Of a stretch of DNA of 64,000 nucleotides, positions 36,646-39,003 are shown one piece after another. How positions within the stretch are numbered: position 1 is the stretch's first letter; every line of letters begins with the position of its first letter. The stretch covers positions 1 through 64,000 of the forward strand of contig JACOST010000014.1 in the NCBI GenBank assembly GCA_016178705.1, written 5' to 3'. The notes beneath the pieces are model-generated. The model searched no databases and was not told the origin of the DNA. It saw only the letters and a program-made list of their open reading frames with translations. This DNA is from Deltaproteobacteria bacterium (GTDB lineage Bacteria > Desulfobacterota > Binatia > HRBIN30 > JACQVA1). Position numbers and translations under genes: made by a program.

Positions 36646-37434
36646 CTACTCGGTATCCGGTAGCGGTTTGCTGGGCGCGTCGAAGTCGGAGCCGTCCTCG
36701 ATCGCCTCAGTCACGTCTTCAGTCGCGGGCTGATCCTGCCACCGCGCGCGTGGCAGCGGCGTCGGTTCCTCGCGCGTGCGATCCTCGCGCTGCCAGGGAG
36801 CCTGTTCAACGCGCACGTGATCGACGACGGCAGTCAGTCCCATCACGTCGTTGAGCGTGTGCAGCAAAATTTGATGCTCGGCGTTGCTCGGTACCTCGCC
36901 CTCGACGTACACCACCCCATGGCGACAGACGATGCGCAATTCGTCGAAATCGAGGCGGCCGTCGGCGAGCAGCTGTTCGCGCACGGTGGTCTGGAGCTCG
37001 CGATCACTCAGCAGGGCGTATTCCGGTGGCAACGTCGCGCGCGGCGGTGTGTCACCCACGACCGGTTCCTCAATTGCGGCGGTGAGCATGCCGCGCTCGG
37101 CCGCATTGGCGCAGGCGATGCAGTAGGATGTAGCCGGCAGCGCCTGCAGTCGCGCCGGGGCGATGACTTCTTCACAGCGGATGCAGAAACCGTAGGTGCC
37201 GGCGGCCATGCGGGCGAGCGCCCGATCGATCTCCTCGACCTCGACCTTAGCGCGGCGGTCGAGACGGTCGAGCAAGCGCATCGTCACCTCTTCCTGTGCC
37301 GCTTCCTCCAACTCGCTATCGCGCGTCCCCTCGAGCGCGTGCAGATCGGTTTCCGTGACGGCGACTTCCTTGAGCAGCAGGCGACGGTGATACTGCAACG
37401 TTTGGTACAGTGCGTCGCGATCCTTCTTGCGCAT
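36646..37434 (-). CDS. DksA/TraR zinc-finger protein fused to a BON domain
   Basis: A 262-residue protein of two parts. Residues 1-115 are DksA/TraR-like: a coiled-coil of two helices, then a C4 zinc finger with Cys84, Cys87, Cys105 and Cys108 (YGFCIRCEEVI, YCIACA). Residues about 145-210 are a BON domain (DRELQTTVREQLL... RIVCRHGVVYVEGEV... GLTAVVDHVRV), a fold of outer-membrane or periplasmic lipid-binding proteins. DksA binds RNA polymerase; BON domains normally sit in other compartments. There is no signal peptide, so it should be cytoplasmic. ATG 37434 has an AGGAGG site. Confidence 0.87.
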   Translation of the reverse strand: MRKKDRDALYQTLQYHRRLLLKEVAVTETDLHALEGTRDSELEEAAQEEVTMRLLDRLDRRAKVEVEEIDRALARMAAGTYGFCIRCEEVIAPARLQALPATSYCIACANAAERGMLTAAIEEPVVGDTPPRATLPPEYALLSDRELQTTVREQLLADGRLDFDELRIVCRHGVVYVEGEVPSNAEHQILLHTLNDVMGLTAVVDHVRVEQAPWQREDRTREEPTPLPRARWQDQPATEDVTEAIEDGSDFDAPSKPLPDTE

Positions 37435-37518
37435 GGCGATCCTCCTGCCTTGGGCGCAAGCACAGTATGGCACCAACCGCAGGCAAGTGGGAAGCATGAA
37501 GAGAACGCGCGACCGCGT

Positions 37519-39003
37519 TCAGCGGCGCTTGCGATCGAACAACTCGAACCCGCGGTCAGGATGGTAAAAGAGACGATACGCCGATTCGACTGGTTCACCC
37601 ATGCGGTGGACCTCCACGCGCATCGACGGGTCGTCGTAGTACAGCCGAACCGCGTCTTCGAATCCGTAGACGAACACGCCGCGGCCGCGCAGATCACCGA
37701 GGCCGTAGAACGCCAGCGGGCGACCGGGCTCGGGGTCGGGGAGCACCTGCAGCAAACTCTCCACGACCTCGCGATGGAGCGCACCACGCGCCACCCACTC
37801 GGTCTCTTCGCGGTCAACCGCCCGCTGCCCGCTCCATAGGTAGGTGCCCAGCAGCGCGCTCACGCAGAGCGCCGCGAATCGCGGGCTGCGCCGCTGTAGG
37901 ATGCGATACAGTTGCGCAACTAACTCAGCAAACACCAACCCAAATCCGGCAACCGCCAGATACAGGTGGCGTGGCCCGCCTCCAAACATCCGAAGCGCAA
38001 ATGGCGCCACACCCATGCCGATCCACAGCAGCCCCCACAGGGCGATCGGCGCACCGCGCCACCATAGCCAAATGGCAACCAGCGTGAGTGCTGCCGCCGC
38101 GGGCAGCGCCAGCCATCCCAGATCGGCCGGCAGGTTCAACATCAGTGAGCTGGTATTGCCGAGCTTACGTGCGAGGAGATTCGTCAGCGCCAATGCCTCA
38201 AGCGGCACACCGGGATCGACCCCCATCTGTCCAAGCGTGATCGGCGCCGATATCACCAAGTGTCGCAAGAGCCCGAAGCCCAGGAAGACGCCGGCCAACC
38301 CACCGTAGAGTCGAAGGCTGCGACGCTCGAACAACGCCGGGCGATCGGAAAACACCTCGCGCGTCAGAATCAATGCCGGCAAGACCGCCGCGCTCTCCAG
38401 TCCGCCCAACGCGAGTGCGAACGGCCCCAGGACGAAGATGAGCCGGCCGCGCCGCTGGCGCCAGCGCACCGAGGCCCACAGCGCGAACAAAACCAGCGCG
38501 CCCGACATCGGTCCGCCGGCTGCGCACACCCACGTCGCCGATTCGGTCTGAATCGGATGCGCGGCGAACACCATCGCCGTCATCAGCGCGCGGAAGCGGT
38601 CGGTGATTTGGGCGCTCAGCGTATACAGGGCGCACGCTGCGAGGGCGTGCCACGCGACGCTGATCAGGTGATACCAGACCGAGTCTACCCCCCACACCAG
38701 ATACTCGATCCCGAACGCGAGCTGGAGCAAAGGACGCCACGAGGTGCCGGCACCGTCGAGGATGACGTCGCTGGTCAGCAGGGTCCACAGCCCCCGCCCA
38801 GGTTGCAGTTTGCAACGGAGCAGCCACGTGAAGTCTTCGTTAATGAAGAATGCCGCGAAGCTGGCGCGGTAGATGAAGAAGACGAGCCCCACGAGCGCCG
38901 CATACGCGAAACCGTCCCACACGCCCGTTGCTGGCAGGTTGTTCGTGTCGCTCGCGGCTGTCCTGTCGGCGCTCACTACGGCGTGCTCTAGCGGGGGCAC
39001 CAA
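37519..39003 (-). CDS. Polytopic membrane protein, glycosyltransferase-like
   Basis: A 494-residue protein with about nine to eleven hydrophobic segments and a soluble C-terminus of about 85 residues. The first periplasmic loop has an acidic FINEDFTWLLR, and later segments (SWRPLLQLAFGIEYLVWG, HPIQTESATWV) resemble the PMT/TMTC-type membrane glycosyltransferase loop. I do not see a clear family, so this is a tentative description. It is divergent from purU. Confidence 0.6.
   Translation of the reverse strand: MVPPLEHAVVSADRTAASDTNNLPATGVWDGFAYAALVGLVFFIYRASFAAFFINEDFTWLLRCKLQPGRGLWTLLTSDVILDGAGTSWRPLLQLAFGIEYLVWGVDSVWYHLISVAWHALAACALYTLSAQITDRFRALMTAMVFAAHPIQTESATWVCAAGGPMSGALVLFALWASVRWRQRRGRLIFVLGPFALALGGLESAAVLPALILTREVFSDRPALFERRSLRLYGGLAGVFLGFGLLRHLVISAPITLGQMGVDPGVPLEALALTNLLARKLGNTSSLMLNLPADLGWLALPAAAALTLVAIWLWWRGAPIALWGLLWIGMGVAPFALRMFGGGPRHLYLAVAGFGLVFAELVAQLYRILQRRSPRFAALCVSALLGTYLWSGQRAVDREETEWVARGALHREVVESLLQVLPDPEPGRPLAFYGLGDLRGRGVFVYGFEDAVRLYYDDPSMRVEVHRMGEPVESAYRLFYHPDRGFELFDRKRR

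Follow-up and report, generated by a model that had tools for sequence, protein, structure and literature searches.

The window, by which we mean the whole stretch of 64,000 nucleotides that was analysed, carries at 36646..37434 on the minus strand a complete gene in which a DksA-like domain is fused to a BON domain, as is apparent from its open frame, ribosome binding site, Pfam domains and orthologues of the same architecture. The single unbroken reading frame runs from the ATG at 37434 to the stop codon at 36646 and encodes 262 amino acids, with an AGGAGG ribosome binding site approximately 6 nt 5' of the ATG. An alternative in-frame ATG at 37497, which would add 21 amino acids, was rejected, as the additional stretch is not conserved in the frames of the nearest relatives and the ribosome binding site belongs to the start at 37434; a scan for a promoter and a terminator at the gene found neither. 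The gene is flanked upstream by an unannotated membrane protein, beyond which comes a formyltransferase/ACT (PurU-like) gene, and on its other side by a convergent enoyl-CoA hydratase.

The protein is ordered as a zf-dskA_traR domain, a short linker, a BON domain and a conserved acidic tail, all encoded on the minus strand. Its DksA-like half (residues 1–114; 37093..37434) consists of a coiled-coil hairpin and a C4 zinc finger, as seen with Pfam, AlphaFold and Foldseek, the Pfam match (PF01258) covering residues 79–114 with an E-value of 3.9e-11 and 43.2 bits against a gathering cut-off of 24.9. Alignments place the hairpin tip (R38-D39-S40-E41-L42-E43-E44-A45-A46-Q47-E48; 37291..37323) at the position of the DxxDxA motif of DksA/TraR proteins. 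The BON domain (residues 143–210; 36805..37008) has an alpha-beta-beta-alpha-beta order and was recognised by Pfam (PF04972, E-value 1.2e-8, 35.6 bits against a gathering cut-off of 27), by the model and by Foldseek; it is the sole BON match in its genome. The original prediction of a DksA-type zinc finger joined to a BON domain in one protein is thus borne out by the Pfam results together with the single open frame, and the concern that the BON-like segment might fail a profile search has been removed, with the AlphaFold model also resembling solved BON domains. As had likewise been proposed, all four zinc-binding cysteines are retained (C84, C87, C105 and C108, invariant in 28 relatives) and a signal peptide is absent: neither signal peptide, lipobox nor membrane helix was found in the protein, which has a charged N-terminus and no hydrophobic stretch, the highest 19-residue Kyte-Doolittle mean being 1.13 and located within the BON domain. 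The fusion is therefore predicted to be cytoplasmic.

In the AlphaFold model, which is of modest confidence (pLDDT 70, pTM 0.33) and does not predict the relative placement of the domains, the hairpin helices span residues 3–35 and 41–78 and the helices and strands of the BON domain residues 144–209. Foldseek searches matched the DksA-like half to 4ijj and 1tjl (DksA2/DksA) with E-values of about 1e-5 and the BON half to OsmY, DolP, BonA and Kbp, whilst the best PDB match by sequence was 2KQ9 from A. tumefaciens. The acidic C-terminal segment (residues 213–262; 36649..36798), identified through the family alignment and modelled with low confidence, carries W214-x-RED-R219 after the BON domain and continues in the family as (T)ED(V/I)xEx-EEG-x-x-(F/Y)-x-(A/P)P-x-x-P-x-P-(D/E)EE; no Pfam family matches this conserved tail (ED..E.EEG..F.PP..P.P.EE).

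The original prediction had called for the same architecture to be sought in other genomes, and it was found there. A search with a profile (A1) built from 13 relatives identified 25 full-length open fusions in 23 of the 148 genomes of the class Ca. Binatia, a patchy presence, and three further fusions lie outside the class in the same phylum (G342, G320 and G280). The carriers are thus some two dozen bacteria of soil and groundwater that are related to each other; for other phyla, the distribution relies on a single motif-based scan covering about 85,000 species, in which seven loci titled Deltaproteobacteria, Ca. Binatia or HR30 were returned. All 28 fusions form one open frame, which disposes of the possibility that relatives encode two separate genes and that a frameshift had been missed. 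Compared with the nearest relative, the whole gene shows a dN of 0.25 and a dS of 1.16 (dN/dS about 0.22) and the BON domain alone a dN of 0.13 and a dS of 1.01 (dN/dS 0.13), values that indicate purifying selection on both halves. The BON-tail module was located at 27 places within the class and is joined to a DksA-like half at 25 of these, from which we infer that the two halves work together; the remaining two are stand-alone BON proteins from G390 and G401 (L095:4337-4870 and L096:3818-4501), cytoplasmic-looking and devoid of a DksA-like half. The correlation of distances between the halves was set aside as independent evidence, since the sequence pairs share ancestry. A phage or plasmid origin was also rejected: there were no matches to the fusion among 50,697 phage records, and plasmid matches cover the DksA half only, none spanning 80% of the query.

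Two loci depart from the regular architecture. In G125 (L110 / G125:C108:115-690), a zinc-finger remnant and a BON domain lie in different frames and the hairpin is gone; the locus has the look of a fusion gene that has decayed. In G021 (L057:4062-6401), a solo DksA-like gene directly precedes a gene with two BON domains and another BON gene, the latter with a hydrophobic N-terminus; this neighbourhood is suggestive of a functional link between the two domains, although it is one case in the 12 solo loci examined. An artefact, in which two genes were joined by assembly error or chance, could be read from the separate frames in G125 and the adjacent genes in G021, but is already refuted by the conserved open frames, with 28 full-length fusions in independent assemblies, both halves under purifying selection and G125 resembling a decayed copy. 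Three further loci of family f11 (L013, L015 and L017) have a pterin-4a-carbinolamine dehydratase-like gene that adjoins or overlaps a solo non-canonical DksA-like gene.

The DksA-like half was compared with E. coli DksA. The DxxDxA motif is absent in 13 of 13 aligned relatives: the first Asp is replaced by S, P, A, I or similar residues, the second by Glu in nearly all 13, and the third position is variable. Shifting the tip of the fusion by one residue yields ExxExA, which is still not DxxDxA; a literature search on what the D74E exchange does to E. coli DksA yielded no description. The equivalents of L95, K98, R129 and K139, which we take to be the residues of E. coli DksA that contact ppGpp, are likewise replaced in the 13 relatives (by E/A/Q, D/E/L/A/Q, L/I/T/Q/E and A/E, respectively). 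Scores against the curated NCBIfam DksA models are about half of the cut-offs (TIGR02420, 54.9 against 115.5; NF033459, 58.3 against 105), and the same genome encodes a separate bona fide DksA (L103, 133.2 bits against 115.5). The fusion is thus not a functional equivalent of DksA/TraR as judged from its sequence, and its DksA-like half would be assigned to the DksA/TraR C4 zinc-finger superfamily (PF01258) but not to the functional DksA family. The earlier DksA/TraR label accordingly holds for the superfamily and for a transcription-type domain, whilst functional equivalence does not follow, with DxxDxA and the ppGpp residues gone. A ppGpp-responsive DksA that performs the job of DksA with an extra domain attached would account for the retained zinc finger and hairpin fold; given the replacement of the motif and of all four contact residues, the scores under the curated cut-offs and the true DksA encoded elsewhere in the genome, we regard this as very improbable.

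The tip has nonetheless not been left to drift. E41 and E43 are invariant in the 28 fusions and R38, E39, E44, A46 and Q47 are conserved at 86–96% (E44, A46 and Q47 at 93–96%), giving the family a Glu-based signature of R-E-x-E-x-E-E-x-A-Q; with two invariant and several highly conserved positions, the hairpin tip is under strong selection and not decaying. In a tree of the DksA-like halves, a branch with support of 100/98 divides every fusion, along with 14 solo proteins, from E. coli DksA and the two other DksA-type proteins of the genome (L102 and L103). This strongly supported branch separates the DksA-like subfamily from canonical DksA. The fusion does not map onto this tree as a single event, as eight label changes are needed, three of them forced by supported branches; the BON domain may have been lost several times, or it may have been gained more than once.

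The original prediction had also raised a small ligand or membrane signal as the input of the BON half. The second BON domain of DolP binds anionic phospholipid, with a Trp in BON helix 1 as a lipid-binding determinant (PMC7806268). No Trp was found in this helix in 13 of 13 aligned relatives, and the idea of a membrane signal is weakened by its absence. The precedent of DolP, together with W214, which directly follows the BON domain, is kept in most relatives and could insert into a membrane, would allow for a membrane-tethered transcription regulator whose BON domain binds anionic phospholipid and couples the state of the envelope to RNA polymerase. Beyond the missing Trp, the net charges of the BON domain (-8) and of the tail (-8) disfavour anionic membranes, and the DolP authors themselves conclude that lipid binding is not a general property of BON domains (PMC7806268), so that we consider such tethering improbable. 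As for a small ligand, Kbp coordinates K+ through six backbone carbonyls (PMC9481166), and K+ binding by the BON domain of the fusion can hence not be judged from sequence.

Gene neighbourhoods were compared for indications of function. The surroundings in the window are not stress-like (enoyl-CoA hydratase, unannotated membrane protein, PurU-like gene and epimerase). The PurU-like gene adjoins the fusion in three relatives too; relative to related genomes, the gene for the 490-aa multi-pass membrane protein (37519-38991, minus strand; no Pfam or NCBIfam match) is inserted between the two. Elsewhere, an Hsp20 gene lies just upstream of the fusion in three genomes of one genus (L022, L027 and L083), and an alternative RpoD/RpoS-type sigma gene adjoins it in four genomes of one family (L021:4535-5716, L084:3954-5144, L085:6895-8076 and L086:1070-2347; under all full-length cut-offs). 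A larger sigma factor gene is found near the fusion in L023, and the best match of the sigma gene in the window genome lies elsewhere (C28). Other neighbours in relatives are HPF, CBS, phosphoribosyltransferase (PRTase), Clp, cyclopropane (CFA) synthase and SDR genes. As a listing of neighbours rather than a comparison with random loci, this context in several relatives points to a role in stress or stationary phase.

Taken together, these results describe a member of the DksA/TraR zinc-finger superfamily that has probably departed from the job of DksA and been repurposed as a stress regulator. The explanation that we favour, and to which we give roughly even chances, is a cytoplasmic, ppGpp-independent stress or stationary-phase factor of the secondary-channel type that uses its BON-tail as a sensor or docking module. 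Here, the hairpin and zinc finger would dock, independently of ppGpp, at the secondary channel of RNA polymerase or at a comparable site, and the BON-tail would hang outside at the channel rim, where it may either recruit a partner or act as a sensor, for example of the ionic or osmotic state; in this manner, polymerase activity could be tuned under stress or in stationary phase beside the true DksA of the genome. A more specific form, in which the BON domain is a cytoplasmic sensor (of K+ or ionic strength, for example) that gates a factor with a Glu-based tip, is rather unlikely, although if true it would couple the activity of RNA polymerase directly with ionic or osmotic conditions in the cell. 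Counting against the favoured explanation are the patchy distribution (23/148), the non-stress neighbourhood in the window and the fact that the closest functionally studied stripped proteins, RSP0166 and SMc00049, are without DksA-like activity (PMC9239242).

The main rival is that RNA polymerase is not a target of the protein, and that hairpin and zinc finger serve as a protein- or nucleic-acid-binding scaffold whilst the BON-tail holds a partner, for example for protein quality control under stress. This is consistent with the loss of every residue needed for canonical DksA activity, with the precedent of RSP0166 and SMc00049 (PMC9239242), with the Hsp20, Clp and HPF genes near the fusion in some relatives and with OsmY, by some measures the closest BON protein, being annotated as a molecular chaperone in NCBIfam (weak score of 14.1). 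However, the tip that enters the polymerase channel in DksA is among the most conserved parts of the fusion, which a simple scaffold would not need, and we see the scaffold as a real but lesser possibility than the polymerase-associated stress factor.

As far as the literature searched shows, the fusion is a real, conserved and so far undescribed domain architecture: no DksA-BON fusion was described in the titles and abstracts searched, where co-mentions came from omics and annotation papers. If RNA polymerase is bound, the fusion would represent a secondary-channel regulator that carries its own sensor domain, whereas DksA relies on a diffusible signal, and the BON domain, the general function of which is unsettled, would gain a transcriptional role. 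Even without polymerase binding, the fusion defines a DksA-like subfamily of its own, marked by another conserved tip, that would otherwise pass for plain DksA/TraR in profile searches.

Comparison with known systems reveals that DksA (E. coli; P. aeruginosa DksA2, 4IJJ) is the best structural match and has the hairpin and zinc-finger-type globular architecture in common with the fusion, which in contrast has neither DxxDxA nor the ppGpp-contact residues, is without the long extension at the N-terminus, bears a BON domain and an acidic tail in addition and falls into a separate clade. The intermediate-length DksA-like proteins RSP0166, SMc00049 and 2KQ9 share the C4 zinc finger but possess no BON domain. 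RSP0166 (R. sphaeroides) and SMc00049 (S. meliloti), which are likened to the fusion by their published description, are reported to have neither DxxDxA nor the ppGpp residues and not to act like DksA (PMC9239242), whilst 2KQ9 has the tip DDEDRA, nearer to DxxDxA than that of the fusion. On the BON side, OsmY, DolP and BonA have the fold in common but are exported to the envelope, and OsmY and DolP contain two BON domains each, whereas the fusion is apparently cytoplasmic and without the lipid-binding Trp of DolP. Kbp/YgaU, an E. coli K+ sensor composed of BON and LysM, is closer in being cytoplasmic with one BON domain and no signal peptide, and superposes on the BON domain of the fusion with 2.2 Å over 69 columns (Foldseek); its BON partner is LysM, that of the fusion a polymerase-type domain. 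The DksA-BON architecture is absent from the main BON clusters listed in PMC7806268; CBS-CBS-BON is a listed major architecture (Table 1 therein) and, like the fusion, carries its BON domain on a regulatory domain, CBS in that case and a DksA-like zinc finger here.
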